A stretch of 64,000 nt of DNA from Agromyces sp. NDB4Y10. Lineage in GTDB: Bacteria > Actinomycetota > Actinomycetes > Actinomycetales > Microbacteriaceae. Below, piece by piece: positions 28,270-50,140 of the stretch (position 1 is its first letter; the number at the start of each line of letters is the position of its first letter). The stretch lies in assembly GCF_001620055.1 (NCBI RefSeq), contig NZ_LQGY01000024.1, forward strand, positions 1 to 64,000, given 5' to 3'. Below the pieces are notes generated by a model. That model saw only the letters and a list, made by a program, of their open reading frames with translations, made no database searches and was not told where the DNA came from. The position numbers were made by a program, and so were the translations under genes.

Positions 28270-29469
28270 TCAGCTGCCCTCGAGCTCCGAGATGAGCGCC
28301 TCGCGCCGCTGCACCGCGATCGACCGGGTGTCGTCGTCGGCCGGGAACCGGTCGGACTCCTCCGGCTCGTCGGCGAGGCCGAAGCCGTGCTCGACCTGCC
28401 AGCTGACCCACACCTCGTCGCCCTCGTGCGCGACGGGACCGAACCCGACGTTCTGCGCGAAGACCGACAGCGTGCCGGCGCCGGGGACGGCGACGATGTA
28501 CTCCGTGCTGACGCCCGCGAAGGAGACGTCGATGACCCGGCCCGGGCCGAGCACGTTCCGGGTGGATGCGGCATCCGGCGCCTCGAGATGGAGCGCGACC
28601 TTCTCGGGTCGCACGCCGACGGTCACGAGACCCTGGTGGCGTTGGGCCCGGGCGACCGGCACCGTGATGCGGTGCCCCGCGACGTCGACCGAGAGCGCCT
28701 CGCTCGTGGTGCCCACGACGTCGCCGGTGAAGAGGTTCGACTTGCCGAGGAAGTTCGCGACGAAGGCGGTGCGCGGCAGCTCGTAGAGCTCCTCGGGCGC
28801 GCCCATCTGCTCGATCGCGCCCTTGTTCATCACGGCCACGGTGTCGGCCATGGTCATGGCCTCCTCCTGGTCGTGCGTGACGTGGAGGAAGGTCAGGCCG
28901 ACCTCCTCCTGGATCGTCTTGAGCTCGAGCTGCATCTGCCGGCGCAGCTTCAGGTCGAGCGCGCCGAGCGGCTCATCGAGCAGCAGCAGGGCGGGACGGT
29001 TGACGATCGCACGGGCGAGGGCGACGCGCTGCTGCTGGCCGCCGGAGAGCTGGGCGGGACGCCGCTGCGCGAGGTGGTCGAGCTCGACCAGCTTCAGCGC
29101 CTCGTGCGCCTTGCCCATCGGGTCGTCCATGCGGCGACGCTTCAGCCCGAACGCGACGTTCTCGATGATCGACATGTGCGGGAACAGGGCGTAGCTCTGG
29201 AACACCGTGTTCACCGGGCGCTGGTGCGCCTTGGTGTCGGTGACGTCCCTGCCGCCGATCAGGATGCGGCCCTGCGTGGGCTCCTCGAGCCCGGCGACGA
29301 GCCGCAGGGTCGTCGTCTTGCCGCAGCCGGACGGACCGAGCAGGGCGAAGAAGGACCCGGCGGGGATCGTGAGGTCGAGCTCCTCGATGGCGGTGAATCC
29401 CGGGAAGCGCTTCTGGATGCCGACCAGCTCGAGGTCGGCGCCGCGCTCGGCGAACTCGCGACCGGACAT
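28270..29469 (-). CDS. potA: Spermidine/putrescine ABC transporter ATPase PotA
   Basis: This 399-residue ATPase has the Walker [13 protein letters not shown] (near residue 45), signature [14 protein letters not shown], Walker [13 protein letters not shown] and the switch His in [10 protein letters not shown]-terminal TOBE domain (residues about 250-390, [13 protein letters not shown]) regulates polyamine or similar importers. Its ATG at 29469 shares one base with the potD stop (TGATG). A second long DNA strand reading frame opposite it is not a gene. It energises PotB and PotC. Confidence 0.94.
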
Positions 29470-30683
29470 CACGACCCCAGCAGGATCTGCTGGAACTGCG
29501 CCTGGTACTTCTGCTCCTCGGCGCCCGACAGCGCACGGAAGATGTACGCGTTGGAGAGGGTCTCCTCGTTCGGGAAGATGAGCTGGTTCTCGGCGAGTTC
29601 GGGGTCGATGGCCGCTGCGGCCTCCTGCGCGCCCACGACGGGCGTGATGTAGTTCACCCATGCCGCGACCTCGGCGGCGACCGCGGGGTCGTAGTAGTAG
29701 TTGATGAGCGTCTCGGCGTTCGTCTTGCGGGGCGAGCCGACGGGGATGAGGAAGTTGTCGTTCCAGAGGGTGCCGCCCGCATCGGGGATGGCGAACTGCC
29801 ACTTGTCGCCCGCCTCGGCGTTCAGGACGGTGATGTCGCCCGACCAGCAGATCGCCGCGAGCGTGTCCTCGCTCTTCAGGTCCTCCAGGTAGGAGTTGCC
29901 CTTGATGTTGCGGATCTGCCCGTTGGCGACCTGCTCGTCGAGGGTCTCGATGGCCGCCTCGAACTCGGCGTCGCCCCAGTCGCCCGAGATGTCCACGCCG
30001 TTCTGCAGCATGATCAGGCCCATGGTGTCGCGCATCTCGGAGAGGACGCCGACGCGCCCCTTCAGGTCGGCGCTCCAGAGGTCCTGGACCTCGCGGAGCC
30101 CGCCCGGCACCTTCTCGGTGTTCCAGCAGATGCCCGCGAACCCGCCCTGCCACGGCAGCGAGTGCTTCCGGCCCTCGTCGAAGTCGGGGTTCTGCAGCGC
30201 CGGAGTCAGGTTCGCGATGTTCGGGATGTTGTCGTGGTCGAGCTCCTGCGTGTAGCCGAGGCGGATCCAGCGCGAGACCATCCAGTCGGTGAGGCAGACG
30301 GTGTCGGCGCCGATGTCCTGGCCGAGCGCGAGCTGGTCCTTGACCTTGCCGTAGTACGTGTTGTTGTCGTCGACCGCGACCTCGTAGTTGACGGAGATCC
30401 CCGTCTCCTCCTCGAAGCGGTCGAGGGTCGGGTAGTTGCCCGCATCGTCCTCGTCGATGTAGGCGGCCCAGTTGGCCCAGTTGAGCGTCTTGTCGCTGTC
30501 GGAGCGGTCGGCGGCCGCGGTGGGGCGAGCCTGGCCGCCGCCCGTGGAGCACGCGGCGAGCGCGAGCGCGGACGCGCCGGCGGCGCCGCCCGCGAGCAGC
30601 GTGCGACGGGTGAGCTGCGCCTGCCGGGCCTGGGCGATCAGAGCGCGGACGACTGGGTCCTGGGGAAGGGGTCGGCTGGTCAC
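29469..30683 (-). CDS. potD: Polyamine ABC transporter substrate-binding lipoprotein PotD, Tat signal
   Basis: This 404-residue extracellular binding protein begins with a twin-arginine lipoprotein signal: LTRRTLLAGGAAGASALALAAC, with the acylated Cys near residue 42. The mature part has PotD/PotF features: LNWANWAAYIDE at the start of the domain, FEEETGISVNYEV, and a C-terminal INYYYDPAVAAEVAAWVNYITPV block. The GTG at 30683 is chosen because GAGGAG lies about 8 bases upstream; the ATG at 30698 has no such site. The protein would be folded before export and lipid-anchored on the outer face of the membrane. It heads the operon. Confidence 0.92.
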   Translation of the reverse strand: MTSRPLPQDPVVRALIAQARQAQLTRRTLLAGGAAGASALALAACSTGGGQARPTAAADRSDSDKTLNWANWAAYIDEDDAGNYPTLDRFEEETGISVNYEVAVDDNNTYYGKVKDQLALGQDIGADTVCLTDWMVSRWIRLGYTQELDHDNIPNIANLTPALQNPDFDEGRKHSLPWQGGFAGICWNTEKVPGGLREVQDLWSADLKGRVGVLSEMRDTMGLIMLQNGVDISGDWGDAEFEAAIETLDEQVANGQIRNIKGNSYLEDLKSEDTLAAICWSGDITVLNAEAGDKWQFAIPDAGGTLWNDNFLIPVGSPRKTNAETLINYYYDPAVAAEVAAWVNYITPVVGAQEAAAAIDPELAENQLIFPNEETLSNAYIFRALSGAEEQKYQAQFQQILLGS

Positions 30684-30768
30684 GCGGGGGCTCCTCATCG
30701 GCTTCGATGTTCGTGCAGGGGTGCGAAGATGATGCCACACTGCGTGGCGGAAATCACGAGTTGATGTC

Positions 30769-30834: not shown

Positions 30835-33705
30835 TCAGTCGTGCCGCGGAATCCAAGATCGGCGCTCCGGCGGGGCCTCCGGCGGGACCACCCAGCACTG
30901 CCGACGGTGGTCGTCGAGGAGCGGCGGCGGAGCGGCGTCCCGGGCGAGTGCGCGGTACTCCCCCGTCCCGCCGTGCACGACGATCGCGGCGCGACCGCGC
31001 GCATGCGCCGCGAGGGCCCAGTTCGTCGTCCACGACTCGGCGTCGCCCACCACGATCCGCGTCGATCCGGGCTCGGGCCCGTGCTGCAGCACGGCCGTCG
31101 CACGAGCGGCTGCCTCGGGACCGTCGCCCAGCAGCACCACCTCCGCCTCCGGACATGCGGCGGCGATCGCGGCGGCGTCCGCTCTCGGCGTGCGCGAGCA
31201 GACGGCCGTCAACGGATGCCGCGCCGGCTCGTAGGGCAGCGGCGGGCGCGGCGTCCCCGCCGGCGGCCGCGGTGCGGCGAGGAACTGGGCTCGGAGACCG
31301 TGCCACTGCCCGGAGCCCGGCACCGCGTCGGGTTCCCAGGGGGCCCCGTCCCCGCCCGCCTGCACGAGGTCGGCACGCGTCGGGTGCCGCAGGAGCACGG
31401 TCGATCCCAGGGCGTCGCGCACGCCGGCACCGAGCCCCGTGAGCCGGGCCGCCGACACGACGACGGCCGACCGGAGGTCGCGGACGCCCCGCAGGATCGA
31501 TTCGACCCGGGCGATCCCGGTGAAGCGCGCCTCGTCGGGCCACGCGGCGAAACACGAGTCCAGGCCGTCGAGCACGACGAGCGCGGGAAGGCGCCGACCG
31601 TCGGCGAGCGCACGATCGAGCTCGTCGAGCGCGTCCCACACGGCGCTCCGGGGACCCTCGATCCGGAGCACCCCGTCGGGACCGCGCCGTTCGGCGACCT
31701 GGTTGGCGATCGCTGCGAGCAGTGCGGTCCGACCGGAGCCCGGCGCCCCGAGCACGGCCAGCGGTCCGTCGCTCGCGGGACGCCACTCGATCGGAACCCG
31801 GCGCTGACGATCCGGTTCGTCGGCCACGCCGAGCAGGATCGCATCGGGATCCGGACGCTCCGGACCGAGGACGGCACCGACGCTGCCGAGCGTGAGCGAG
31901 CGTGGGAGCGGATCGAGCCACGGGCGGCGCGGCAGGGCGACCGCGGCGTGGCGATCGGCGGCCGATCGGATCGCGGCGTCATCGGCGAGCGCCGATTGGA
32001 ACCGGACGACGCGCCCGTCACCGGCATCCGCGATCCCTCGCCCCGGCGTGCTCGCCTCGATCGACGCGGCCGCCTCGGTTCCCACCACCGCGGTGCTGTC
32101 GGCTCGCTGGAGCACGCGCAGCGAGACCCGGATCCCGCAGTTGGCGGTCACGTTCTCCCGCACGACGCCGTTCGGGCGCTGCGAGGCGAGGATCAGGTGC
32201 ACCCCGAGCGATCGGCCGCGCGCGGCGACGTCGGCGATCACGGCCCCCAGCTCCGGGAACCGCTCGACCATGGCCTGGAACTCGTCGATGACGACGACCA
32301 GGCGAGGGAGCACTGTGTCGGGCCCCAGGCTCGCGAGGTCGCGCGCACCCACGGAGGCCAGGACGTGCTCGCGATGCCGGAGTTCGGCGCGGATGCTCGC
32401 CACCGCCCGCCCGGCCTCCGACTCGGCGAGGTCGGTCACGACACCCGTCACGTGCGGAAGCGCGGCGACCGGGTCGAACGCCGCCCCGCCCTTGAAGTCG
32501 ACGAGGAGGAAGGCCACGCGGTCGGGCGGGTGGATGGCCGCGAGGGCCGCCACCCAGGTGACCAGGAACTCGCTCTTGCCACTGCCCGAGGTCCCGGCCA
32601 CGAGCGCGTGCGGTCCAGTGGCGAGGTCGAGGTGGAGCGGGCCGGACTCGCTCGCACCGACCGGAACCCGCAGGCTCGACCGATCACCGGCTGCCGGAGC
32701 CAGGTCGAGCTCGGACAGCGCGACCCGGGCCGGCAGCGCCGCCGCACCGTCCATGCCCGCCCGGCGACCTGCGATGGCGGCTCGTCCCACCCAGGCTCGC
32801 GCTTCGACGGTGCCGGCGAGTTCCGGGACGACGGGGATGGCCGCTCCGCGTCCGACCACGGCGAGTCCGCGGTGCCTCAGCTCGACGACCGTGGCGAGAC
32901 CCGGGGGAAGCTCATCGGGGGTGGCGCCGACCGCGATGAGGTGCACCCGGTCGCCGTCCGCCTCGCGACTGACGGCGGCAGCGGCGCCGTCGATGACCCG
33001 CAGTCGAGCTCGAGCCGGCACCGTCACGTGCGGGAGGCCTGCGATCCACTGCCAGGGCTCGGTGCCGGGCGCCTCGATCGCGATCGTGCCCGGGGGCACG
33101 GCGTCCGCGCACTGCACGAGCGCCGCCCGCGCCGCGGCGAGCGCGAGACTCCGGGGACCGGTGAAGCCGAGTCCGCCGTCCACCTCCGCGGTCAGCGGCG
33201 CCTCGGCGAGCCGACCCGCCGACCGCAGCAGGTCGGCGTCGTCGTCATCGGACGGCATGCCGTCGATTCGCACCCGACTGGGCAGCGTCGCGGCGCCGAG
33301 GACCACGGGCCCCGGCTCGGTGGCCCGCCACGCCGGGATGCCTCGCTCCATCACGCGACGGGCGCCGGGCGCCAGGCGCCAGGCCGCCTCGCGCTCGAGG
33401 TCGTGTCGGAGCGCGATCTCCTGTCGGAGCCGTTCGAGGGCAGCTCGGCGCTCGCCTGCCGACCGCCGGCGTTCGCGACGGGACTGGCGGCGCCCGTCGA
33501 GCATCGAGGCGACCGCGACCAGTGGACCGAGCACGGCGAACAGCAGCGCGAACGTCGATCCGGTGACCGCCCAGATCGCCGTCGCACCGACGACGGGCGC
33601 AGCCGACGCGATCCAGGGGAACCCGGGCCGAGTCGGTTCCGGGGGCCGCGGCGGGAGGGCGAGCGGGATGAGGCCGGGCGGGGACCAGTGGCTCGGATCG
33701 GACAC
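30835..33705 (-). CDS. FtsK/SpoIIIE-type ATPase resembling EccC/EssC of type VII secretion
   Basis: This 956-residue protein has two hydrophobic segments near the N-terminus (about residues 30-68), a 300-residue linker, then an FtsK-type ATPase. Walker A is GTSGSGKSEF at 371-380 and Walker B VVVIDEFQAM at about 470-479, with ASQRPNGVVRENV after it. A second P-loop-like motif, GAPGSGRT (653-660), marks another ATPase module without an obvious Walker B acidic pair. This layout (membrane anchor, then tandem ATPases with GTSGSGKSE) is that of EccC/EssC, not of chromosome-segregating FtsK, which has a gamma domain. It would drive transport at the membrane. The start is the GTG or ATG at 33705. It is last in the 17.7 kb cluster, 91 bases after the zinc-ribbon FHA gene. 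Confidence 0.82.
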   Translation of the reverse strand: MSDPSHWSPPGLIPLALPPRPPEPTRPGFPWIASAAPVVGATAIWAVTGSTFALLFAVLGPLVAVASMLDGRRQSRRERRRSAGERRAALERLRQEIALRHDLEREAAWRLAPGARRVMERGIPAWRATEPGPVVLGAATLPSRVRIDGMPSDDDDADLLRSAGRLAEAPLTAEVDGGLGFTGPRSLALAAARAALVQCADAVPPGTIAIEAPGTEPWQWIAGLPHVTVPARARLRVIDGAAAAVSREADGDRVHLIAVGATPDELPPGLATVVELRHRGLAVVGRGAAIPVVPELAGTVEARAWVGRAAIAGRRAGMDGAAALPARVALSELDLAPAAGDRSSLRVPVGASESGPLHLDLATGPHALVAGTSGSGKSEFLVTWVAALAAIHPPDRVAFLLVDFKGGAAFDPVAALPHVTGVVTDLAESEAGRAVASIRAELRHREHVLASVGARDLASLGPDTVLPRLVVVIDEFQAMVERFPELGAVIADVAARGRSLGVHLILASQRPNGVVRENVTANCGIRVSLRVLQRADSTAVVGTEAAASIEASTPGRGIADAGDGRVVRFQSALADDAAIRSAADRHAAVALPRRPWLDPLPRSLTLGSVGAVLGPERPDPDAILLGVADEPDRQRRVPIEWRPASDGPLAVLGAPGSGRTALLAAIANQVAERRGPDGVLRIEGPRSAVWDALDELDRALADGRRLPALVVLDGLDSCFAAWPDEARFTGIARVESILRGVRDLRSAVVVSAARLTGLGAGVRDALGSTVLLRHPTRADLVQAGGDGAPWEPDAVPGSGQWHGLRAQFLAAPRPPAGTPRPPLPYEPARHPLTAVCSRTPRADAAAIAAACPEAEVVLLGDGPEAAARATAVLQHGPEPGSTRIVVGDAESWTTNWALAAHARGRAAIVVHGGTGEYRALARDAAPPPLLDDHRRQCWVVPPEAPPERRSWIPRHD

Positions 33706-33796: not shown

Positions 33797-34459
33797 TCAG
33801 GCGACGGTGAAGGCCTGCTCGCCGATCTCGACGCGACTGCCGCGCGGGACGAGCACCCGCCGCCCGGGTTCGCAGCGCACCCCGCCCTCGCCCGGCCGAC
33901 GGACGACCGTGCCGTTGGATGAGAACCGGTCGGCGACCCAGAGGTCGCCGTCATGCTCGCCGAACTCGAGGTGCGTCTTCGACACCGACAGTCCCCGATC
34001 GACGATCTGCACGAGGTGCGCGAACCGCTCCCCCGGCTGCGGCATCGGCCGCCGCCCGACGAGCCCCGAGCCGGAGACGCTGACGACCTCGCCGGTCGTG
34101 AAGCGCAGTACCCAGACGGCGGACCCGGCGTCGGGGTCCCCCGCGGGCTCGGCGGGCTCGGCAGGCCCCGCCGGAACCGGGGGCTCGGCGGGCCAGGTCA
34201 CGCCGCCCGCGAGTCCGGACGGCGTCGCGTCCGGACCGGGTGGGGAGACCTCCGGCTCGGCCCGGCGCTCGGCACCGACGGGTCCCCCGACGACGGGGAT
34301 GCTGATCACGCCGCTCTCCGAGCGGTGCAGGACGGAGGTGTCGCCCGGCCGTGGGTCGACCGGTCGACGCGACTCGGGCGTGGCCGACGTCGAGCTGCCG
34401 CACTCGCCGCAGAACATCGCGCCCTCGGGCAGGTCAGCGCCGCAGATCCGGCAGGTCAC
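33797..34459 (-). CDS. Zinc-ribbon and FHA domain protein
   Basis: This 220-residue protein begins with a zinc ribbon (MTCRICGADLPEGAMFCGECG; Cys3, 6, 17 and 20) and has an acidic, Pro-rich linker with a GDTSV site. It ends in a forkhead-associated domain (about residues 115-220) with the phosphothreonine-binding residues in GLVGRR, SVSKTHLEF and FSSNGTVV. It would recognise a Thr-phosphorylated partner, most simply a substrate of the kinase at 45029. Its GTG start lies 26 bases inside the 3' end of the transglutaminase-fold gene, an unusually long overlap. It precedes the EccC-like ATPase; in Firmicutes EssC the FHA domains are fused to the ATPase, here they are separate. Confidence 0.88.
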   Translation of the reverse strand: MTCRICGADLPEGAMFCGECGSSTSATPESRRPVDPRPGDTSVLHRSESGVISIPVVGGPVGAERRAEPEVSPPGPDATPSGLAGGVTWPAEPPVPAGPAEPAEPAGDPDAGSAVWVLRFTTGEVVSVSGSGLVGRRPMPQPGERFAHLVQIVDRGLSVSKTHLEFGEHDGDLWVADRFSSNGTVVRRPGEGGVRCEPGRRVLVPRGSRVEIGEQAFTVA

Positions 34460-36821
34460 GAGCCGCCTCCCTTCGATTGCCAGCGTAGCGGCCGAACGAG
34501 GCGAGGGAGACGGCCGCGCGCAGGCGCTCTCGCCACGATCGTGGGGCGGCGATGCGCTGCTGCAGCTCGTCGACCGCCGACCAGATGCGTTCGTCGTCGC
34601 CCTCGTCCGGGCCGTCCGGCGCGTAGACGGCTCGGTCGATGACCGCGGCGAGCACGAGCGGCTCCAACCCGCCGACGGTGGCCGCCTGCTCGGCGCGGGT
34701 CGCGCCCGCAGAGATGGGGTAGCCGTAGTCGGCGGCGGTGTCGGTGAACTCGTGCCAGCCGCCCTCGATGCGCTCGACGGGAGTCGGCGCCCGCCGCCGG
34801 ATGCGGCGTCGGCGCGCCTTGGCGAGCACGATCGCGAGGAACGGGCTGAGGGTCAGGAGGAGGGCGGCCAGCCCGATGCCGACGACGCGGGCGACGGCGA
34901 GCAGGGCCTCGAGCCACGCGGCGCGATCGTCGTCTCGGTCGTCGGCCCCCGTATCCGGCTCGACGACGAGGTCGTCGATCGGGGTCCGCTCCTCGGGCGG
35001 TGGGAGGGCGGACTGCGGCCGGGAGACGATGGTGGGCTCGTCCGGCTGCCGTTCGGGAACCGGGCGACGCTCGGGATTCGGGTCGACCTGGATCCAGGCT
35101 CCCGTGCTGGCCTGCACCTCGATCCACGCCTGCAGCTCGTCGCTGCGGAACACGCGCCTGCCCGCGTCGTCCTCGCTCGGGTCCTCGCCGGGGAGGTAGC
35201 CCACCACGACCCGGGCCGGGAACCCGATCGCGCGCGCCATGAGGGCGGCGGCCACCGCGTACTGTTCGCCATCGCCGAGCATCGGCTTGACGGTCGCGAG
35301 CTCCGCGATGCGGTCGAGGGAATGACCGGATCGGCTCGGCTTGTCGTCGCCGACGCCGTGGCTGACGTAGCCCTGGCCGTGGAACCCGTCGATGACCTTC
35401 GCGAGTCGGACGCCCGGCGGATCGGAGGCCGGCGCCCACGAGTCGAGGAGCTGCAGCAGCTCCTCGGGCGGGTCGGGCGCCTCCGGCAGCACCGCGCCGC
35501 CCGGCCGCAGCTCGGCGAGATCGACGTCGTCGATCGAGGCGACGGACCGTGCCTCGTACCGGTCGCCTTCACGTAGGCCGGTCCGGACGCCGCCCGTGCC
35601 GGTCACGTCGTTGTAGTGGAACTCCTCGGTGAGGGCCGGGGCGCGATCGCTCGGCGACCGGAAGCGGATGCGCTCGAGCCGCCCGATCCCCGGCACCCAC
35701 ACGTCGTCGTAGCCGAGCACCTCGACCGCGATCTCGACCGACTGCCCGGGCGTCCCGGTCTGGTCGAGCCGGAACGGCAGGCGGGTGAACTGGCCGGATG
35801 CCGCCGAGCGGTCGGCTCCGCCGACGGAGTAGACGATGCCGTCGTACGTGTCAAGCGTCGCCACGCGCAGCCCGGCCCCGTCGGGAAGGCCGCTGACGGC
35901 GAGCATCGGGGTGGCTGCGACATCCGGATCGAAGGCGCGGCGGAAGCCGGCAAGGGGGCTGTCGAAGTCGTCGGGTTCGAACGGCGGCTGGAGCTGCGCG
36001 CGCACGACCTCGCGGGGGCCGGGCGGGATGACGAAGGCGGCGGCGGTGGCCCCCACGAGTGCGACTGCGACGAGGGCGCTCGCTCCGACGATGCGGCGGA
36101 CCCCCGCGAGCGCGGCCTCCGAAGGCCGCTCGCCGATGATCGCCCGGTGCGACGCGAGTCCGACCCGGACGAGCCAGGCCACGCACGCCACGAGGAACGC
36201 GAGCCCGGACTGGACGGCGAGCTCATCGTGGATCACGCCGAGCGCGATGCCCGCGACGAGCAGGAGTGCCGGAGGGAGTGCAGCGGCCGCGGGCCGCGCG
36301 GTGCGCAGGGCGATCGACACTGCCGCGGTGGTCGCGATCAGTCCGAGGATGAATGGCGGGACGAGCAGGGCCTGGTAGCTGCCGACCGGGACGGCGATGG
36401 TGACGAGCTGCTTCCACGACAGCGCCGTGCCGGCGACGAGCTCGACGAGGCCCTCCGAGGTCGGGAGCACGGTCCCGAACGCCCGGCCCGGCACCGCGAC
36501 CGGCACGCCGAGCACCAGGTAGGCGCCGGCCACGGCGGCGACCACCGCCCACGACGGCCACCGCCGTACGGCGCCGATCACGCCGATCGCCGAGCCCACG
36601 AGGATCGCCACGGCCGCGGCCACCACGAACGAACGGCTTTCGTACACCGGCCACCACGGCACCATCGCGGCGGCGGTCATCGCCGCGACCATCACGACCG
36701 AGACCAGGGCCGAGCGCGGCGATGACGCACGCCCGACCGCCCACCGCTCCCGCCGACGCCCGGTGCGCCGGACCGGTTCGGCGCCGCCGAACCGCTCCGG
36801 GCCGATGATCCGCTCGCTCAT
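34434..36821 (-). CDS. Membrane protein with transglutaminase-like domain lacking catalytic Cys and His
   Basis: This 795-residue protein has about six N-terminal membrane segments (residues 38-265). A large extracellular domain (about 270-620) and a last membrane segment near 640-660 with a cytoplasmic tail follow, the TgpA layout. The transglutaminase core is present: LGDGEQYAVAAALMARAIGFPARVVVGYLPG (515 onward), then ELQAWIEVQ and WIQVDPNP. In active members the first block has Cys at the place of Gly518 (GDC), and the second has His where Gln564 stands (HAW); only Asp580 of the triad is kept. I conclude that it is a pseudoenzyme, possibly a binding or scaffold protein. The ATG at 36821 overlaps the stop of the DUF58 gene (ATGA). 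Confidence 0.87.
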   Translation of the reverse strand: MSERIIGPERFGGAEPVRRTGRRRERWAVGRASSPRSALVSVVMVAAMTAAAMVPWWPVYESRSFVVAAAVAILVGSAIGVIGAVRRWPSWAVVAAVAGAYLVLGVPVAVPGRAFGTVLPTSEGLVELVAGTALSWKQLVTIAVPVGSYQALLVPPFILGLIATTAAVSIALRTARPAAAALPPALLLVAGIALGVIHDELAVQSGLAFLVACVAWLVRVGLASHRAIIGERPSEAALAGVRRIVGASALVAVALVGATAAAFVIPPGPREVVRAQLQPPFEPDDFDSPLAGFRRAFDPDVAATPMLAVSGLPDGAGLRVATLDTYDGIVYSVGGADRSAASGQFTRLPFRLDQTGTPGQSVEIAVEVLGYDDVWVPGIGRLERIRFRSPSDRAPALTEEFHYNDVTGTGGVRTGLREGDRYEARSVASIDDVDLAELRPGGAVLPEAPDPPEELLQLLDSWAPASDPPGVRLAKVIDGFHGQGYVSHGVGDDKPSRSGHSLDRIAELATVKPMLGDGEQYAVAAALMARAIGFPARVVVGYLPGEDPSEDDAGRRVFRSDELQAWIEVQASTGAWIQVDPNPERRPVPERQPDEPTIVSRPQSALPPPEERTPIDDLVVEPDTGADDRDDDRAAWLEALLAVARVVGIGLAALLLTLSPFLAIVLAKARRRRIRRRAPTPVERIEGGWHEFTDTAADYGYPISAGATRAEQAATVGGLEPLVLAAVIDRAVYAPDGPDEGDDERIWSAVDELQQRIAAPRSWRERLRAAVSLASFGRYAGNRREAARDLPDLRR

Positions 36822-38161
36822 GCCACCGACGCCGATCTCGCGATCATCGCGCGCAGGTCGTCGAGGTAGCCGAGATCGAGCACCGTGAGGGCGCCGATCG
36901 AACGCGCCGCCGCCTCGCCCTCGGCGCTGCACCGCACGACGACGCCCTCGACGCCGGGGTGCAGGCGGGAGGCGGCGTGACGGAGTTCGGCGACCGGACG
37001 GGCGGCTCCCGTGACGAGGAAGGCGAGCGAGACCCCCGTCACCGACTCGGATGCGGATCGGACGGTCTCGGCGAGTCCGGCGGCGCGCGCGTCGGTCTCC
37101 ACGACGCAGAGCCCGTCGAGCAGCCGGTCGCGCGAGGCGGTCGCCAGTTCCCGCATGGCGGGGCCGCGGCGCCGGTCCCCGTCGTCCGAGGCGCGGCGGG
37201 CGCTCCGAGCACGACCCGACACGACGAAGCTGATGCTCCGGGCGTCGCGGATGGCGCGGGCCCCGAGGGAAGCGGCCGCGCTGACGGCGAGTTCGAAGTC
37301 GTCCTCCTCGTCGTAGGCGTCGGCCGCGAGGTCGAGCACGACCATCATGCGGCTGCGACGGGTCTCCTCGAACTGCCGCACCATGAACGTTCCGGTCTTC
37401 GCCGAGCTGCGCCAGTGGATGAAGCGCCGGTCGTCCCCGGGTTGGTACTCGCGCAGCGCGTGGAACGAGATGTCGCTGATCGTGAGGTCGCGGGTCGCCG
37501 TGCCCTCCAGGTCGCGGAGGTAGCCCGTGCTGAGCGGCGAGACCGCGATCGTGCGGGGGTGGACGTGCAGCATTCGCACGCCCGACCACTCGATCTCGCG
37601 ACGCATCAGGCCGATCGGATCGGCGCGGACGGTCTGCACCGGGCCCACCTCGACGATGCCGCGACGGCGGGTCGGAATCGCGACGCGCTCGTCGAACACC
37701 GCGCCGTGCGCGAGCGGCGGCAGGACCTTCGCGACGACGCGGTCCCCGACCGGGAGCTCGAGGCGGGCCGCCGCGAACCGCCGGCGGCCGGGGTTGCGCA
37801 CGACGAGCCGCGCCTCCGCCTCCTCGCCGACGGCGACGCGCGCGACGGGCAGCGAGAGGTCGATGCTGCCCGCGCCGCGGCCGGCGAGATACGCCGAGGC
37901 GAGCGCGACGAGCAGGCCGAATCCCCAGCCGATGACGACCAGTTCCGCCCATCCCCAGCCGTAGCCGATGACGAGCGCCGCCGCTGCGGCCGCGACCACG
38001 CCCCAGCCGAGGGGGGTGACGACGCCGCGGGCCGTCGCCCACCATCGTCCGACGACGGATGCCGCAGCCTGCACGGCCGCGACCGCGCGCCCGATCACGA
38101 CCGCGAGCAGGCCCTCGGTGGCCGCCTCCTCGGGGATCGTGGAGCGGGTCTGGAACGTCAC
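36818..38161 (-). CDS. DUF58 domain protein (MoxR partner)
   Basis: This 447-residue protein has two N-terminal membrane segments (about residues 45-95) and the DUF58 signature REYQPGDDRRFIHWRSSAKTGTFMVRQFE (about residues 235-265). A von-Willebrand-A-like region with MVVLDLAADAY follows. DUF58 proteins are regularly encoded beside MoxR AAA+ ATPases and transglutaminase-fold membrane proteins; the trio is thought to act in assembly or activation of cell-surface complexes. The GTG at 38161 overlaps the moxR stop by four bases (GTGA), and its own stop overlaps the next start. The exact client is unknown. Confidence 0.9.
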   Translation of the reverse strand: MTFQTRSTIPEEAATEGLLAVVIGRAVAAVQAAASVVGRWWATARGVVTPLGWGVVAAAAAALVIGYGWGWAELVVIGWGFGLLVALASAYLAGRGAGSIDLSLPVARVAVGEEAEARLVVRNPGRRRFAAARLELPVGDRVVAKVLPPLAHGAVFDERVAIPTRRRGIVEVGPVQTVRADPIGLMRREIEWSGVRMLHVHPRTIAVSPLSTGYLRDLEGTATRDLTISDISFHALREYQPGDDRRFIHWRSSAKTGTFMVRQFEETRRSRMMVVLDLAADAYDEEDDFELAVSAAASLGARAIRDARSISFVVSGRARSARRASDDGDRRRGPAMRELATASRDRLLDGLCVVETDARAAGLAETVRSASESVTGVSLAFLVTGAARPVAELRHAASRLHPGVEGVVVRCSAEGEAAARSIGALTVLDLGYLDDLRAMIARSASVA

Positions 38162-39129
38162 CCGGCCTGCCTCGCCGACGGCGGAGGGGTCTCGATGAGC
38201 ACCTGCGCGATCATGTTCGACGCGGTCACCCCGTCGAACTCGGCCTCGGGGTCGAGGATGAGGCGATGGGCGAGCACGGGCTCGGCCAGCGCCTTCACGT
38301 CGTCGGGCACGACGTAGTGCCGGCCTCGACCGGCCGCATGGGTCTTCGCCGCCCGCACGAGCGCGAGTGCGCCGCGGACGCTGACGCCGAGCCGCACCTC
38401 CTTCGCGGTCCGCGTGGACTCGACCAGTCGGGACACGTAGTCGTGGATGGTCGGATCGACGTACACGGTCCGCGCGAGCGCCGCCATCCGAACGATGTCC
38501 GCCGCGCCCAGCCGCGGTTCGACGCGGTGGTCGTGGGCGCGCTGGTCGGTTCCCTCGAGGATCCGGATGGTCGAGGCGTGATCGGGGTAGCCGATCGAGG
38601 TCCGCATCAGGAAGCGGTCGAGCTGCGCCTCGGGCAGCCGGTACGTTCCGGCCTGCTCGACGGGGTTCTGCGTGGCGATCACCATGAACGGCCGGCCGGC
38701 CGGGTGGGTCTGCCCGTCGACGGTGACCTGGCCCTCCTCCATGACCTCGAGCAGTGCGGACTGGGTCTTCGGGCTCGCGCGGTTGATCTCGTCGGCGAGC
38801 ACGATGTTCGCGAAGATCGGACCCGGATGGAACTCGAACGCGCCGGTGCGCTGGTCGTACACGGACACGCCCGTGATGTCGCCCGGCAGGAGGTCGGGAG
38901 TGAACTGGACCCGGTTGCTCGACCCCGCGACGGACTGCGCCATCGCGCGGGCCAGTGAGGTCTTGCCGGTCCCCGGCACGTCCTCGAGGAGCAGGTGCCC
39001 CTCGCTGAGCAGCGCGGTGAAGGCGAGGCGGATGACGCGGTTCTTGCCGAGCAGGACCTCCTCGACCGCCCCCACCAGTCGGTCCAGGTCCGCGGCGAAC
39101 CGCGTCGCGTCCTCAGGGGTCATGGTCAT
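38158..39129 (-). CDS. moxR: MoxR family AAA+ ATPase
   Basis: This 323-residue MoxR ATPase has Walker A EDVPGTGKTSLARA (residues 49-62), Walker B NIVLADEINRASPKTQSALLEVMEE, sensor 1 VIATQNPVEQAGTYRLPEAQLDRFL and a C-terminal lid domain. MoxR proteins act as chaperones for cofactor insertion or complex assembly, with VWA/DUF58 partners. The start at 39129 is preferred: AGGAG lies five bases upstream. An in-frame ATG at 39156 would give the ATGA overlap seen elsewhere in this operon, so nine extra N-terminal residues are possible. Confidence 0.92.
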   Translation of the reverse strand: MTMTPEDATRFAADLDRLVGAVEEVLLGKNRVIRLAFTALLSEGHLLLEDVPGTGKTSLARAMAQSVAGSSNRVQFTPDLLPGDITGVSVYDQRTGAFEFHPGPIFANIVLADEINRASPKTQSALLEVMEEGQVTVDGQTHPAGRPFMVIATQNPVEQAGTYRLPEAQLDRFLMRTSIGYPDHASTIRILEGTDQRAHDHRVEPRLGAADIVRMAALARTVYVDPTIHDYVSRLVESTRTAKEVRLGVSVRGALALVRAAKTHAAGRGRHYVVPDDVKALAEPVLAHRLILDPEAEFDGVTASNMIAQVLIETPPPSARQAG

Positions 39130-39152
39130 GCGTGCTCCTGCTCCCTGCGAGT

Positions 39153-42100
39153 TCATCGGGCCTCGAATCTCGCGGTGACGCCCGCGACCTCAACATCCAA
39201 CCAGACGCGGTCGCCCGGGGCGGCGCCGGGGACCTGGCACGAGGTCGGCGACTGCGCCGCCCGGCTCTCGGAACCGCCCACGACACCGCACCGGTACGCG
39301 GCCGGCAGCCCGCCGTTCGCGGGATCGGCGGTCCACGTCCACGTCACGCTCGCCGGATCGTACGCGCGCCCCGGCAGGGCGAAGGTGAGCGACGGCGTCT
39401 CGCCGGACGGCTGCGTCTCGGACCAGGGCCCGCACGAGCCCCACACCGAGCAGGCACGGACCTGGAACCGCGCGGTCTCGCCGAACGGCCGGTTCAGCAG
39501 GGCGCGAAGCCACCCCGAGCCGGAGAAGTCGCGCGGCGTCCCGATGCGCACGCCGTTGGCGTCGACCGCGATGATCTGCAGGCGCCGGGTGCCGGCGTCG
39601 ACGTTCGACACGTAGCGGTCCCACGTCTCGGCGTTCAGCCAGTCCATCGCGCTGTCCACGCCCGAGACGGCCCCGGGGGCGGGCCGGACCACCGTCCCGG
39701 CGACGGCGGTGTGCACGCAGCCGGCCCGGTTGTGACCCCACACGATGAACGAGTACCGCGCGGACTCGGTCGACGTTCCCGTGAACGACACGCTCGAGAC
39801 ATCCGGGCCCACCCTGACGACCTCGGCCACAGTGCCGCCCGCCGTGGGTGCGACGACCGTACCCGGAGCCGGCCGCGTGACCGAGCACGCCTGCGCGCCG
39901 GTGGGCACGCCGGACTCGCCCTCGACGAGGCGCTCGACGTAGTAGCCGCCGATGGCGTCGCCGTTGCCGGCGAACGGCGTCCACGACACCACGACGGCCC
40001 CGGCGGCGGGATCCGCGGCCACGGCGATGTCACCCGGGATCGGCGCGCCGAAGGGCGTCCCGGTGGTGGTCGCCTCGGTCCACTGGGCGAGCGCCGGGAA
40101 CGCGCCGTTGCGCGCGCTCACGGACACGGCCGCGCTGCTGCCGTTCGCGAGCTGCTGCGATTCGGTCGCGCACCGGGTGGCGGTGCAGACGCGCGACGCG
40201 GAGACCTCCACCGGCGAGCCCGCGACGGTGACCACGTAGGTGCTGACGGGGCTGCCGGAACCGGTCGACACCGGCGCCCACTCGATGCGGAGCCGTCCGT
40301 CGAGCGGCATGGCGCGCAGGCCGGACGCCGGCCCGGGCACCACGTCCGACCAGACCGGACTCGGCAGCTCGACCGGGTCGGACAGGCCGATGCCGTTGCG
40401 CGCCTGGATGCGCACGCGGACGGCCGATTCGGGTCCGTTGCCCGGCGTGGCGACCGTGCACGTCGTCGCGCCGCACTCGGTCGCCGCGACCTCGCGGCCG
40501 TCCCGGGGGTCGGCGAGCGAGATGCGGTAGCCCTGGATCGGCGAGTTGTTGAAGGCGCCGGCGCCGAACGCGACGTCGAGCGCGCCGTCGCCGAAGCCCG
40601 TCAGGCGCGCGTCGCTGACCGGGTCGGGGCGGTCCTGCACCGAGACCGTCACGGTGCCCCAGGCGTACCGGCTGCGGTCGCCGGTGGCGTCGGCCACCTG
40701 GTACTGGACGACGGTGTTCACGGGCGCCGCGTTGGCGGAGACGGTGATCGACAGCCGCGAGCGGTCCGCGTTCGGCGTGATGGACACCCCGGCCGGGAGG
40801 TCCCCCGAATCCAGGCCGCGCACCGCGATCACCCGCAGCGGCGTGTCCGGGAACGGGTTGCCGGCGGCGTCGTTCGCGAGCACGTCGACCGTGGTGCTGC
40901 GGCCGCGCGGCGCGACGGCGGTGTCGGGAGCCGGCTGCGCGAGGGGGCGGGTGGAGGGGACGACCCGCAGCTCGATCCGCCCGGGCGTGCCCTCCACGTC
41001 ACCGTCGACGACCGCGATCGTGATGGCGCCGCGCGTGCCGTGGGGCGTCGCCTCAGCGGCGCGCAGGCGGAGCTCTCCGCCGTCGACCGAGGCCTCGAAC
41101 CCCTCGGGCACGTCGCCGACGACGCGGTACGCCAGCTCGGCGCCGCCCTCGTCGTCGGGTCGGTTGGTCAGCCGTTCCAGGGCGATGGTCCGCGACTGGC
41201 CGGGTTCGAAGTCGATCATGCCGCCGACGAACGTCGGTGGCTGGTCCTCGTTCGGGCGCACGTCGATCGGAATGACGATCGTGCCGGTGCGCCCGTCCGG
41301 GTCGTCGGCCGACGCCCCGTCCGTGACCGTGAACGAGATCGACGCGGGGCCGAAGTAGCCCGCCTCGCTGCGGAAGCGGAGGGTGTCGGCGTCGACGACC
41401 AGGTCGCTGCCGTCCGAGTGCGAGGCCCGCACGGTCGCGGCATCCGTCAACCGGACCGGCCGCCCGGACGCCGCGACGACGTGGTCCTCGAGCTCCAGCA
41501 CGACCTCCTCGCCGGTGGTGACGCGCACCTGCGGGGCGTCGCGCCGCAACTGCGGGAGGGCATCGTCGCGGCCGGGAACCCAGATGAAGGCGAACGCGCG
41601 CAGGTCGGGGTCGTCCGGGTGGCCGACCGAGTAGGGGATGATGCGGCGCCGGTCCTGCACCTCGACCTCGATCGAGCCGTCCGAGGTCACCCGTGCGCCG
41701 CCGTCGTACCCCTCGACCAGCGAGACCGGGGCGTCGCGCTGGTCGGCATCCGCGATGAACACCTCGCCCAGGATGTCGACGTCGACGCGCTCCTCGTCGA
41801 GCACGTCGCTGAGGCTCAGCACCACGTCGGCGGCTTCGGGCCTGATCAGGGGCGCATCGTCGCGCGCGTCGACGCGGAGGAAGGCCGTGGTCGCCCCGAG
41901 ACGCTCGTTCTCGACGGTGTAGATGAAGCTGTGGTCGCCCTCGCCGGCGGGCACGTCGACGCGGATCACGTCGCCGTCCACCTCGGCGGTGGCGCTGCCG
42001 GTGTTCGGCTCGACTCCCACGATCGAGAGCGACGCGCCGTCCGGGTCGGAGTCGTTCGCGAGCACGCGCACGGCGAGCGAGCGACCGGGTCGGACGGTGA

Positions 42101-45032
42101 TGCGATCGTCGAGGGCGACCGGGGCGCGCACGCCGTCGAGACCCGGCGCCACGCCGACGCGGACGACGCCGGTCGCACGTGCGCCGAGCGCGTCGACGAC
42201 CGAGTACTCGAAGGTGTCCGTGCCGGCCGAGTACTCCCCCGCCTCGTACTCGAGCCAGTCGGTGCCGCGGTCGACGACGGCACCCCGCTCGGGATTCGAC
42301 TCCTGACCGAGCAGCTGCACGGAATCGCCGTCGGGGTCCACGCCGGCCAGTGGGATCCGGACGCGGACCGTGTCGCCCGCGAGCACGCGGGCCGTTGCGG
42401 TCGCCGGGACGGGCGGGGAGTTCGTCGCCGGGTCGGCCTCGCGCACCGTGATCGCGACGGATGCCGTGGCGTTCTGCCCGTCCGGACCGAGGACGCGATA
42501 CGACGCCTCGAAGACGCCCGGCTCGCCGGGCGCCTGGAATCGGAGCCGGTTGCCCGCGGCGAACAGCAGACCGGCCGACGGCGCCGACACCAGCTCGGGG
42601 TCGAGCTCCAGCGCCTCGCCGTCGGGGTGCTGGTCGTTGTCGAGCACCGGGATGTCGATCACATCACCCGTGCGCGCCGATGCCGTGTCGGGCGCGGCGA
42701 CGGGGGGCTGCGGCATGCCGGGCGGCGGCACCTGCACGACCGTGACCGTGCCCTCGGCATCGGCCAGCCCGTTGCTGACGCGGTAGCCGAAGGTCGCCGA
42801 TCCCTGCTCGAGCGGGCTCGTGAGGCTGACGCGCAGGATCCGGTGCTCGATCACCTCGACGCGCACGCCGGGGTCGTCGGGCGCCTCCCCCAGCCCGGTG
42901 ATGACGAGCAGCCCGCCGGTCGGATCGATGTCGCCCGCGAGGACGTCGACCTCCACGGGCTGGTCCTGGCGGAGGAACGCGGTGTGCGGCACGGTGATCG
43001 GGGTGGTGTCGCGCTCCGGCGGGGCGGCGACCTCGACGCGGACGGTGCCCGTCGCGGTCTGACCGCCGTCGGTCACGGTGTACTCGAGGAAATGGGTGCG
43101 CACGGCGGCGCTCGAGAACCGGAAGGTGCCCTTGTCGAAGTCCGGTGCCAGGTCGGCCTCGGGCTTGGACGGAACCGCCGAGAGCCGGGCCTCTCCCGAA
43201 CCGCCGCGGACGTGGCGGAGGGGCTCGAGCCGGATCTCCTCGCCCGCCGTGGCGAGCGCCACGAACGACTCCGCGATGAGCGGCGCCTCGCCCGGCGCCC
43301 GGACCCGAACCTCGAGCGTGCCCGTGCCCTCGTCGCGCCCGTCCGACACGATGAGACCGACGCGGCGACGGTCGCCCTCGCCGCCGCGCTCGTCGAAGAC
43401 CACCACGCCGTCGGCGGTGGAGGTCGCGTCGTCCGGGTCGCTCGCCGTGGCGGCGCGGAGGAACATGGGGTCGCCGTCCGGGTCGACCCACTCGCCGAGC
43501 ACCGGGGTGTTCACCCGGCCGCCGGCTTCGACCACTGCGCTCACCGGACGGACTTGCGCCGGAGGGCCGTTCTCGTCCGGCTCCCGCACGGTGACCCGCG
43601 CGAGCGCCTGGGCGACGCCGCCGCGACCGTCGTCGATGTCGTAGCGGAGGTCGAAAACGCCCGTGACCGTCTCGTCGAGCGTGAGCTGCAGCTGCTGCCC
43701 GTTCGAGACGAGGTCGACCCGCGCGCCGGCCGGGAGGTTCCCCGAGGTGCTGCGCACGACGAGGACATCGCCATTGGCGTCGTAATCGTTCAGCAGCACG
43801 GGCAGCAGCGTCGCCCGCCCCGGACGCGCGCCGAACTCGTCGTCGACGGCGACGGGTGGGACCTGGCTCTTCTCGGTCGCCACGGGCGAGTCGGGATCGT
43901 TCTGCTCGACGCGGCGCTCGTCCCGCTCGATCTCGATCAGCTTCGCCCAGTTGTCGATGAGCTCGTAGTCGCCCGCGGCCGACCAGGTCGCCCCGGTCTG
44001 CGGGTCGTTCAGCACCAGCGCGTCGCCGTTCGCGAGGAAGCGCGGACCGGGCGCGGCGATGCGCCGGCCGAGGGGCGTGGGCTGGCCGGTCGCACCGTCG
44101 CAGGCCCGCCACGCCGTGCCGCCGCCCCAGGCGGCGTGGACGCATTCGCCGTGGCGGACGGGGCGCGCCGGGCTCCCGGTCATGCTGTCGGCCAGGATCA
44201 TCGGCTCGGCGCCGTCGAAGGGCACCTCGACGAGTCCTTCGCGGGTCGCGAGGAGGACCCCGTCGCCGTCGAGCGAGGGCCGCTGGAGGACCGTCCGCTC
44301 ACCGCTCGCGGCGACGTCGGAGAGGTCCACCGACCGACCGTCGAGGTGCAGCAGTCGCGCACCGGCGTCCCACACCGCCCAGCGACCGCCGACCGAGGTC
44401 ACCTGCGCGTTCTCGGGTCGATCGATCGGGCCGACCTGCCACGTGTCGACCGGGCTCTCGGGCGCCGTCGCGTCGACCTGCCGGAGGTCGCCCGTGGACG
44501 GGGTGTAGCCGAACACGCGTCCCGCCTCGTCGACCGACGTCACGGACTGGGCGCCGAACTCGAACGCGGGTTCGTCCTCGCTCCTGAAGTCGCCGAACTG
44601 CTCGATCGGCTCGACCCACAGGTCGCCGTCGGCCGTGACCACGACCCGGTCGCCGGCGAGGGCGATCTCGGCGCCGGCGGGCGGCATCGAGACGGTGTCG
44701 GCGACGGCGGCAGTGGCCGGATCGACGATGCCGACGCTCGAGCGGTCCCGGTCGAGGACCAGCACGGTCGCGCCGCGCTGCACGATCTCGGGACTGGCGC
44801 CGCCCGCCTCGACGACGGCGTTGAGCTCGCCGACGGCCGTGTTGGCCCGGCCGACGGACTCGTAGGTCTGGTTGGCCACCCACACCGAAGCGTCGCCGAG
44901 ATCGATGCGCTGCGCCGAGTAGCCGCCCGAGGCGACCGCCACCCCGGCGACGACGGCCACGACGACGCCGACCGCCGTGCCGGTCAGGAGCGGCCCGCGG
45001 CGGGCCCGCCAGATCTCGGCGACGTCGATCAC
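39153..45032 (-). CDS. Giant membrane-anchored Ig-like/fibronectin type III protein
   Basis: At 1959 residues this is by far the largest gene. A 13-residue cytoplasmic start is followed by one membrane segment (about 14-37), then a region of about 340 residues with repeated short beta-units (WAVWDAGARLLHLDG and similar) that looks like a beta-propeller. About eleven Ig/cadherin-like repeats of roughly 97 residues follow (385 to about 1460), many with a VAxDD...VLxNDxDPDG start. Three or four fibronectin type III domains make up the last 500 residues. There is no LPXTG or second anchor. It would stick out 30 nm or more from the membrane through the wall. The GTG at 45032 overlaps the kinase stop by four bases (GTGA), so it is coupled to the kinase gene. 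Confidence 0.9.
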   Translation of the reverse strand: MIDVAEIWRARRGPLLTGTAVGVVVAVVAGVAVASGGYSAQRIDLGDASVWVANQTYESVGRANTAVGELNAVVEAGGASPEIVQRGATVLVLDRDRSSVGIVDPATAAVADTVSMPPAGAEIALAGDRVVVTADGDLWVEPIEQFGDFRSEDEPAFEFGAQSVTSVDEAGRVFGYTPSTGDLRQVDATAPESPVDTWQVGPIDRPENAQVTSVGGRWAVWDAGARLLHLDGRSVDLSDVAASGERTVLQRPSLDGDGVLLATREGLVEVPFDGAEPMILADSMTGSPARPVRHGECVHAAWGGGTAWRACDGATGQPTPLGRRIAAPGPRFLANGDALVLNDPQTGATWSAAGDYELIDNWAKLIEIERDERRVEQNDPDSPVATEKSQVPPVAVDDEFGARPGRATLLPVLLNDYDANGDVLVVRSTSGNLPAGARVDLVSNGQQLQLTLDETVTGVFDLRYDIDDGRGGVAQALARVTVREPDENGPPAQVRPVSAVVEAGGRVNTPVLGEWVDPDGDPMFLRAATASDPDDATSTADGVVVFDERGGEGDRRRVGLIVSDGRDEGTGTLEVRVRAPGEAPLIAESFVALATAGEEIRLEPLRHVRGGSGEARLSAVPSKPEADLAPDFDKGTFRFSSAAVRTHFLEYTVTDGGQTATGTVRVEVAAPPERDTTPITVPHTAFLRQDQPVEVDVLAGDIDPTGGLLVITGLGEAPDDPGVRVEVIEHRILRVSLTSPLEQGSATFGYRVSNGLADAEGTVTVVQVPPPGMPQPPVAAPDTASARTGDVIDIPVLDNDQHPDGEALELDPELVSAPSAGLLFAAGNRLRFQAPGEPGVFEASYRVLGPDGQNATASVAITVREADPATNSPPVPATATARVLAGDTVRVRIPLAGVDPDGDSVQLLGQESNPERGAVVDRGTDWLEYEAGEYSAGTDTFEYSVVDALGARATGVVRVGVAPGLDGVRAPVALDDRITVRPGRSLAVRVLANDSDPDGASLSIVGVEPNTGSATAEVDGDVIRVDVPAGEGDHSFIYTVENERLGATTAFLRVDARDDAPLIRPEAADVVLSLSDVLDEERVDVDILGEVFIADADQRDAPVSLVEGYDGGARVTSDGSIEVEVQDRRRIIPYSVGHPDDPDLRAFAFIWVPGRDDALPQLRRDAPQVRVTTGEEVVLELEDHVVAASGRPVRLTDAATVRASHSDGSDLVVDADTLRFRSEAGYFGPASISFTVTDGASADDPDGRTGTIVIPIDVRPNEDQPPTFVGGMIDFEPGQSRTIALERLTNRPDDEGGAELAYRVVGDVPEGFEASVDGGELRLRAAEATPHGTRGAITIAVVDGDVEGTPGRIELRVVPSTRPLAQPAPDTAVAPRGRSTTVDVLANDAAGNPFPDTPLRVIAVRGLDSGDLPAGVSITPNADRSRLSITVSANAAPVNTVVQYQVADATGDRSRYAWGTVTVSVQDRPDPVSDARLTGFGDGALDVAFGAGAFNNSPIQGYRISLADPRDGREVAATECGATTCTVATPGNGPESAVRVRIQARNGIGLSDPVELPSPVWSDVVPGPASGLRAMPLDGRLRIEWAPVSTGSGSPVSTYVVTVAGSPVEVSASRVCTATRCATESQQLANGSSAAVSVSARNGAFPALAQWTEATTTGTPFGAPIPGDIAVAADPAAGAVVVSWTPFAGNGDAIGGYYVERLVEGESGVPTGAQACSVTRPAPGTVVAPTAGGTVAEVVRVGPDVSSVSFTGTSTESARYSFIVWGHNRAGCVHTAVAGTVVRPAPGAVSGVDSAMDWLNAETWDRYVSNVDAGTRRLQIIAVDANGVRIGTPRDFSGSGWLRALLNRPFGETARFQVRACSVWGSCGPWSETQPSGETPSLTFALPGRAYDPASVTWTWTADPANGGLPAAYRCGVVGGSESRAAQSPTSCQVPGAAPGDRVWLDVEVAGVTARFEAR

Positions 45033-50078: not shown

Positions 50079-50140
50079 GGAATCCGTTGCGAATCGCGCA
50101 CATCTCGACGGAATCACTTGTGGATGGACGAAGCGACTGT

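Follow-up and report, generated by a model that had tools for sequence, protein, structure and literature searches.

The window analysed here is a stretch of 64,000 nt from Agromyces sp. NDB4Y10 (assembly GCF_001620055.1, contig NZ_LQGY01000024.1, positions 1-64,000, forward strand), a member of the Microbacteriaceae, which is a family of soil and water bacteria. An open reading frame (ORF) on the reverse strand at 30835..33705, starting with a GTG codon, encodes a short type VII (T7)-type membrane ATPase of 956 amino acids (aa) with a transmembrane (TM) pair, a DUF/D0 domain, an active-type first ATPase domain (D1), a second domain (D2) with arginine in place of the Walker lysine, and a probable remnant of a third (D3). 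The ORF is more than a chance reading frame, since its product is 38-57% identical to 19 aligned relatives. An earlier note on this DNA had described the product as an EccC/EssC-type motor on the strength of a GTSGSGKSEF motif, an N-terminal membrane pair and a second P-loop, and all three features were confirmed. The P-loop GTSGSGKSEF occupies residues 371-380, and a second P-loop-like stretch, GAPGSGRT, occupies residues 653-660. The Pfam family FtsK_SpoIIIE matches the protein at 2.1e-27. Partial matches to the NCBIfam models EssC, EccCa and EccCb reach 238.9, 219.6 and 176.5 bits, far above FtsK, and lie under the equivalog cut-offs of 778.4, 509.15 and 346.55 bits, as do those of the long EssC encoded in the same genome (539.2, 342 and 318.3 bits). 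Among solved structures searched with phmmer against the PDB, the top match is Thermomonospora curvata EccC (1.6e-59), followed by YukB and EccC5, with FtsK at 3.7e-18. The window ATPase is firmly a member of the EccC/EssC (type VII) family and not of the FtsK family.

Phylogeny agrees with this assignment, and the placement among DNA translocases that the earlier note had named as refuting its reading did not materialize. In a careful tree of D1 sequences (57 chosen rows, 241 columns), the FtsK rows separate at 100/100 and 24 short ATPases form one clade (100/99) within the T7-type ATPases. A larger tree, made by a quick method only and including 16 of the 34 Agromyces loci, likewise unites 63 short rows in one clade, within which one Micrococcales assembly (L069) also falls. 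D1 extraction covered 166 proteins, six of which (L134, L135, L136, L141, L142 and L143) had no D1 match of sufficient length. The nearest relatives of the short ATPases are actinobacterial EssC-type proteins, including the organism's own long EssC and proteins of Bifidobacteriaceae (two in the quick tree, one in the careful tree). The short ATPase is a paralogue of EccC/EssC that forms a single clade across the Microbacteriaceae, and it probably arose once, before or early in the radiation of the family. A 1466-aa EssC-like ATPase of Mycobacterium sp. GA-2829 (L080) groups with an EssC clade for which the label T7SSd-like was coined in this analysis, and not with the EccC references.

An AlphaFold model of the window ATPase, made from a 22-row alignment, has a mean predicted local distance difference test (pLDDT) score of 87.3 and consists of a TM pair with stalk, a DUF-like domain, D1, D2 and a small C-terminal domain. 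Helices 31-48 and 51-111 of the model fit the N-terminal membrane pair plus stalk, an assignment made by match to EccC. Residues 325-956 of the model match T. curvata EccC (4nh0) with a Z-score of 34.6 (602 residues aligned, root-mean-square deviation 6.9), and residues 1-316 match the N-termini of the EccC proteins of ESX-3 and ESX-5 with Z about 19, so that the TM pair and DUF are predicted to be present. The Walker A lysine and the Walker B DE of D1 are kept in 80 of 80 rows, and the position of the Walker lysine in D2 is occupied by arginine in 54 rows and by lysine in 19, a count that contains two genomes twice (L064 and L066 duplicate the genomes of L038 and L035).

A loose P-loop pattern was not found in D3 of 73 of the 74 short ATPases, in 7 of which D2 itself was unlocated, and the same pattern also missed 5 of 13 long ATPases. 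The D2 site is followed by 304 residues in the window protein, the medians being 310 in short and 458 in long ATPases. No P-loop could be seen by eye in the C-terminal domain of the window ATPase. When searched alone this domain gave only weak sequence matches (E at least 0.086), and when folded alone its best match was D3 of EccC5 (Z 7.4). In mycobacterial EccC, the pocket by which the EsxB tail is recognized lies in D3 (ATPase3), a domain of about 270 residues (PMC6954902); the window ATPase has about 130 residues in place of that domain. The three FtsK-like domains with nucleotide sites D1-D3 are therefore not all present in the window ATPase: the D1 site is intact, D2 and D3 are degenerate, and D3 looks like a short remnant in the model. 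The protein thus has in common with EccC/EssC (TsxC) proteins, such as that of T. curvata, the TM pair, stalk, DUF, intact D1, D2 fold and position in the tree, but it is 956 aa long as against about 1300-1500. The short ATPases further differ from those proteins in the exchange of lysine for arginine in the D2 Walker motif of most of them, in a reduced D3 without a visible P-loop, and in having no fused FHA domain and no WXG100 gene beside them, and in two streamlined genera the motor is reduced to the TM region and D1.

The ATPase gene ends a cluster whose genes all lie on the reverse strand and are given here from right to left. An FHA protein (FHA2; 47384..48496, start uncertain) is followed by a PP2C-type phosphatase (46549..47358, start set at a conserved VTQIG), a Ser/Thr protein kinase (45029..46477; Pkinase 4.7e-40, HRD and DFG motifs visible) and a giant envelope protein of about 1985 aa (39153..45110). 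The giant protein carries Big_9 (6.8e-64) and cadherin-like tandem-95 repeats and a single N-terminal hydrophobic segment recognized by eye. Checked for FN3 domains, it gave with Pfam these Big_9/cadherin repeats and one sub-threshold Ig-like (immunoglobulin-like) match near the C-terminus. Next come a MoxR-type AAA+ ATPase (38158..39156), a DUF58 protein (36818..38161), a TgpA-like membrane transglutaminase corresponding to tgm of the PFNA operon discussed below (34434..36821), and a protein with a zinc (Zn) ribbon and an FHA domain (33797..34459) directly upstream of the ATPase. Overlaps of 4 nt link the giant, MoxR, DUF58 and TgpA genes, and 91 nt separate the Zn-ribbon-FHA gene from the ATPase gene. 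The conserved site is bordered upstream by an aldehyde dehydrogenase gene (48529..50103, reverse strand) and downstream by a gene for a PotD-like polyamine-binding lipoprotein (29469..30740, reverse strand), named from its sequence and the neighbouring transporter genes; both lie outside the system. A polyamine-type neighbourhood of aminotransferase, aldehyde dehydrogenase and PotD/A/B genes surrounds the cluster at window positions 28270-30740 and 48529-52078 and is conserved.

The Zn-ribbon-FHA protein scores 22.6 bits for FHA (cut-off 20.7) and 23.5 bits for the Zn ribbon (cut-off 25). Its canonical phosphothreonine-binding pattern is present in 58 of 58 located ORFs, L169 being probably the other FHA gene. 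With 38.5% identity over 135 aa, the protein matches RDD-FHA, a separate protein encoded ahead of EssC in a Microbacterium type VII secretion system (T7SS) locus, while its best match among 25 T7 ATPases has an E value of only 0.29, and a relative of its gene stands directly before EssC in 11 of 16 long-EssC loci. By sequence, its gene corresponds to the FHA gene located just ahead of EssC in T7SS loci. The idea that it is the FHA domain fused to EssC in Firmicutes, occurring here as a neighbouring protein, was not borne out, and an origin as an FHA domain cut off EssC was rejected: the match is to RDD-FHA and not to EssC, and the organism's own full-length EssC retains an FHA domain.

The short ATPase is widespread in the family. 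A separate set of named relatives comprises the best 80 of at least 569. In a survey of 199 Microbacteriaceae genomes (call at E <= 1e-72), it was found in 117 genomes and 51 of 85 genera, with a profile adding 14 more genomes, and within Agromyces it occurs in 35 of 36 genomes, in one of them as a fragment. The full cluster from kinase to ATPase is present at 55 of 74 loci (30 of 34 in Agromyces and 25 of 40 elsewhere), and PotD follows the ATPase at 28 of the 34 Agromyces loci. L177, with no ATPase match at its threshold, stood outside this survey of neighbours. The remaining 19 loci have no giant gene beside the ATPase (at L172 the sequence covered only 1.9 kb upstream of the ATPase), and a PP2C gene lies within 2 kb upstream in 15 of them. 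Of 18 genomes without a giant at the ATPase locus, 17 encode a giant-type protein elsewhere, three of these proteins having 45-50% identity over nearly their whole length, so a link between giant and ATPase at a distance is possible. In 9 of the 17, by coordinates read by hand, a gene for such a protein and one for a long T7 ATPase share a contig and are at most about 30 kb apart. Streamlining alone does not remove the cluster, since a reduced genome of 1.7 Mb (L166) retains all of it. The ATPase genes of L055, with a shortened frame, and G010:C1:1720658-1723585, with one TGA in the match, look interrupted, for which sequencing error or decay are possible causes.

Further reduction is seen in other members of the family. 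Searches with a short-ATPase profile identified divergent or miniature relatives in 14 of 16 further genomes, with frames down to 318-349 aa. A class of genomes termed FtsK-only from matches to TIGR03928 was thereby found to be wrong for most of those re-tested. Miniature ORFs of 318-346 aa occur in six genomes of two genera and comprise a membrane pair, read by eye, and a single D1 domain. Those of L197-L199 (three genomes of one genus, 1.3-1.4 Mb) lie exactly between the aldehyde dehydrogenase and PotD genes, and that of L197 matches EccC at 2.8e-22 as against 2.4e-4 for FtsK; the miniatures of genus g35 lie on the other side of the same neighbour genes. The short forms and some miniatures thus keep the same chromosomal site. 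No giant, MoxR, DUF58, TgpA or kinase match was obtained in the locus stretch searched at the 14 divergent or miniature loci, where PP2C is retained in two and the FHA gene in three. The suggestion in the earlier note that the motor was adopted by the giant-protein cluster fits the 55 loci where the giant adjoins the ATPase but not the 19 ordinary and 14 divergent or miniature loci where it is absent, and the giant-protein module looks like a separable accessory. Together with the long paralogue of about 1490 aa (D1-D3), the short form of about 960 aa (only D1 intact) and the miniatures of about 330 aa (TM and D1) make up a natural size series. The series bears on the need of T7 ATPases for three nucleotide domains and on the question of how small a T7 export unit can be.

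The locus resembles two known systems. T7SSd (Garrett et al. 2024) comprises TsdA, TsdC, TsdD, TsdH and TsdI, among which are a kinase, the giant Ig protein TsdI, a WXG100 protein and an FHA-ATPase (PMC11217815). The window locus is like it in that a kinase and a giant Ig-repeat protein stand beside a T7 ATPase in Actinomycetota, and in that a ubiquitin-like protein was not found. The kinase and giant protein match TsdD and TsdI as kinds of protein only, not as established orthologues. Unlike T7SSd, the window locus has no WXG100 gene, its ATPase is truncated, its FHA domain is separate, and MoxR, DUF58, TgpA and PP2C genes are added. The second system is the PFNA operon of Bifidobacterium (pkb2-fn3-aaa-atp-duf58-tgm, plus prpC and fha; PMC8430577, PMC6803598), which has the same order of kinase, giant, MoxR, DUF58 and TgpA genes with FHA after them, and in which PP2C is present. 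The order of kinase, giant, MoxR, DUF58 and transglutaminase genes described for PFNA (PMC8430577) recurs in the window and at the 55 loci with the full cluster. The window differs from PFNA in the upstream position of PP2C and a second FHA gene and in the T7-type ATPase gene with which the cluster closes. A 2025 review draws a comparison between PFNA and the mycobacterial moxR operon (PMC12067865).

PFNA-type genes also stand in the same direction beside full-length EssC at 5 of the 16 long-EssC loci examined, namely L073 and L074 (Microbacterium), L075 (Pseudoclavibacter), L072 (Pseudarthrobacter) and L076 (Demequina), with a WXG100 match in L073, L074 and L076. The other 11 gave no MoxR, DUF58, TgpA, giant or kinase match in the stretch examined. 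Because of these loci and the make-up of T7SSd, the locus in the window resembles an operon of T7SS type with a truncated ATPase and no WXG100 gene. Such loci join the PFNA literature on bifidobacteria with that on T7SS variants, which were not found joined in the papers searched. The terms ftsK and type VII are absent from PMC8430577, ftsK is absent from PMC6803598, and MoxR, transglutaminase and words beginning with microbacteri are absent from the main text of PMC11217815. A literature search, with most subscription papers and bioRxiv preprints outside its reach, showed among the papers listed none on this ATPase family, on a link between PFNA and T7SS, or on a groEL-adjacent WXG100 protein.

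The Agromyces genome does encode a T7SS locus elsewhere. Contig C38 (L008, 1-10075) carries an FHA gene, a full-length FHA-EssC and a downstream WXG100 gene. The EssC reading frame spans 1913 aa, of which an N-terminal part is probably a false extension, the core beginning near L008:2190. In the D1 trees this EssC groups with proteins of Microbacterium, Bifidobacteriaceae and a Mycobacterium sp. As in the window, an FHA gene lies directly upstream of the T7 ATPase; the C38 locus differs in its full-length, FHA-bearing ATPase, in the WXG100 gene and in giving no PFNA-type match in 10 kb. The earlier note had named a complete T7SS locus elsewhere that uses the window ATPase as refuting its reading; a T7SS locus exists on C38, but with its own ATPase. 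As had been supposed from the window, an EccD component seems to be missing, in that no YukD/EccD ubiquitin-like match was found in the whole Agromyces genome with a control that was positive in Bacillus subtilis. A search for EccB gave no match in the Agromyces genome either, but its control matched nowhere.

No WXG100 gene accompanies the short ATPase. Stop-to-stop segments of at least 50 codons were searched in the window and 74 orthologous loci without a match (best E 2.2), while five control ORFs were recovered at E <= 3e-25, three of which had built the model. A WXG100 gene hidden in the cluster was on this basis rejected, which agrees with the earlier reading that none is visible in the 64 kb. 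The absence is local only. Pfam WXG100 matches occur in the Agromyces genome on contigs C38 and C39 alone, and not on the window's contig, one gene lying beside the long FHA-EssC and the other (L009:9437-10009, on C39) adjoining groEL. GroEL-adjacent WXG100 genes, conserved across the family, were found at L009 and 31 further loci, mostly also beside a response regulator and a histidine kinase, and their products have a tail of the YxxxE...[LM]F type. Each of the 34 WXG100 loci examined encodes WxG and YxxxD/E, and 32 of them adjoin GroEL; the exceptions are a locus from another family and the second copy present in G125.

Across the 199 family genomes, a WXG100 match (E <= 1e-6) is present in 184, and none of the other 15 scores for the short ATPase at the survey threshold. 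Exactly one WXG100 gene is present in 37 of 37 genomes with a short ATPase and no long EssC, by searches combined by hand, and in 14 of 14 genomes with divergent or miniature ATPases. In the 26 of these 51 genomes that were examined, the WXG100 gene lies beside GroEL in every case and encodes WxG and YxxxE. All 131 family genomes with an established short or miniature ATPase have a WXG100 match. If genomes were independent, sets of 131 and 15 drawn from 199 would fail to overlap with a chance of 3e-8; genomes are not independent, and the figure describes the table only.

These observations lead to a proposal, which stands at about even likelihood, that the window encodes a T7-type motor that is reduced and under phospho-control, and that its most likely partner is the unlinked, groEL-adjacent Esx (WXG100) protein. 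The short ATPase would most likely work as a membrane-anchored ring motor driven by D1. Phospho-control is proposed because of the gene order and the intact motifs, and judged from this anatomy it is likely: Ser/Thr phosphorylation would set motor activity, with the kinase and PP2C acting on a partner read by the Zn-ribbon-FHA protein. The most probable client would be the conserved WXG100 protein with its WxG and YxxxE motifs rather than the neighbouring giant, a choice made because this protein and the ATPase co-occur in 51 of the 51 genomes assigned to the class with a short or miniature ATPase but no long EssC. Export of this protein is the leading, though unproven, function. A non-WXG substrate, one of the possibilities raised in the earlier note, may be the case, but its likelihood is now no higher than that of a WXG100 partner encoded at another place. 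With D3 reduced, the EsxB-tail pocket would not be usable in the known way, and the client would presumably be read by D1/D2 or by an adaptor. The PFNA-type module of kinase, giant Ig protein, MoxR, DUF58 and TgpA would be an accessory, also found in some true T7SS loci, that probably matures an envelope-spanning protein like TsdI.

More speculatively, and with the balance against it, the Microbacteriaceae may have a minimal, genetically split T7 system that consists of a single T7-type ATPase and a single Esx protein whose gene lies elsewhere, beside groEL. In two streamlined genera its motor would be reduced to 318-346 residues, made up of one D1 domain and a TM pair. Such a system would be the simplest T7 apparatus known: no EccD-type component was found, the D3 signal pocket would be lacking, and a separate FHA protein would mediate phospho-control. 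The bifidobacterial PFNA operon would be a relative of a T7SS accessory module.

Several observations weigh against the proposal of a reduced motor with an Esx partner. D1 alone also fits FtsK structures (Z 28.9 over 272 residues), the D3 remnant is read from weak fold matches, of which the Z of 7.4 is the best, and the sister relation of the short clade to the T7SSd-like EssC clade is weak (82/31). The g35 miniatures have weak matches of 42-60 bits, and miniature L200 matches EccC at 2.5e-9 but HerA at 6.9e-7. The groEL-adjacent WXG100 gene is near-universal in the family and occurs in another family together with a long T7-type match (L195), so its co-occurrence with the ATPase may reflect two core genes. 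In a mirror-tree comparison, from which one of 19 genomes was dropped for want of control genes, the partial correlation of ATPase and WXG100 (r 0.50) was close to that of a control pair (0.47). G220 and G125 have WXG100 matches and no short ATPase by profile, although the other two sampled members of the genus of G125 do have it. Eight genomes (G064, G075, G118, G120, G146, G186, G203 and G208) have unclassed T7-type matches between 1e-42 and 1e-72; seven of these have one WXG100 gene, including G208 with its 1524-aa frame, and G120, which is 75% complete, has none. Finally, 10 of the 15 genomes without a WXG100 match have long EssC, which means either that the search at this threshold misses divergent WXG100 proteins or that real T7SS loci without WXG100 exist.

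Alternatively, the short ATPase could be an envelope-assembly motor by which, together with MoxR, DUF58 and TgpA and without any WXG100 protein, the Ig-repeat giant is exported or anchored. The full cluster at 55 of 74 loci, the 4-nt overlaps and the 91-nt spacing on one strand, the giant Ig protein TsdI of T7SSd, and the presence of giant-type genes away from the ATPase in 17 of the 18 genomes that were tested (with 45-50% identity in three) all suit this explanation. It is nevertheless unlikely given the 19 loci without a giant beside the ATPase (including L172 with its short upstream sequence) and the 14 divergent or miniature locus stretches without any match to the module. In addition, the giant has an N-terminal hydrophobic segment of its own, so Sec could insert it.

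It is less probable still that the motor serves a non-WXG client, possibly one tied to the flanking genes for polyamine uptake and breakdown. PotD follows the ATPase at most Agromyces loci (28 of 34), and even the miniatures L197-L199 still occupy the site between the aldehyde dehydrogenase and PotD genes, but neither gene was found in about 16 kb upstream and 1.5 kb downstream of several loci (e.g. L154, L157, L163, L171 and L176), and the only transport domain concerned is that of the T7 motor. A role as accessory or decoy subunit of a full T7SS encoded elsewhere would suit the FHA-EssC and WXG100 genes on C38 and the many relatives that carry both long and short ATPases; it is made improbable by the 37 genomes in which the thresholds applied revealed a short ATPase but no long EssC, and by Agromyces genomes G012 and G035, where nothing but the short ATPase and a match of FtsK type came up. 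An FtsK/HerA-like DNA translocase, for which the D1 fit to FtsK structures and the HerA match of one miniature might speak, is rejected with hardly any doubt on the 100/100 separation of FtsK in the D1 tree, the EccC-type fold of the TM/DUF region and the presence of a separate FtsK on contig C50 of the Agromyces genome.

The distribution of the ATPase also bears on individual species. Pontimonas salivibrio is described as having no type VII systems (PMC6106888). Genome G089, taken as that species, has a short ATPase with an FHA match beside it and one WXG100 gene, and P. salivibrio thereby gains a candidate type VII system.

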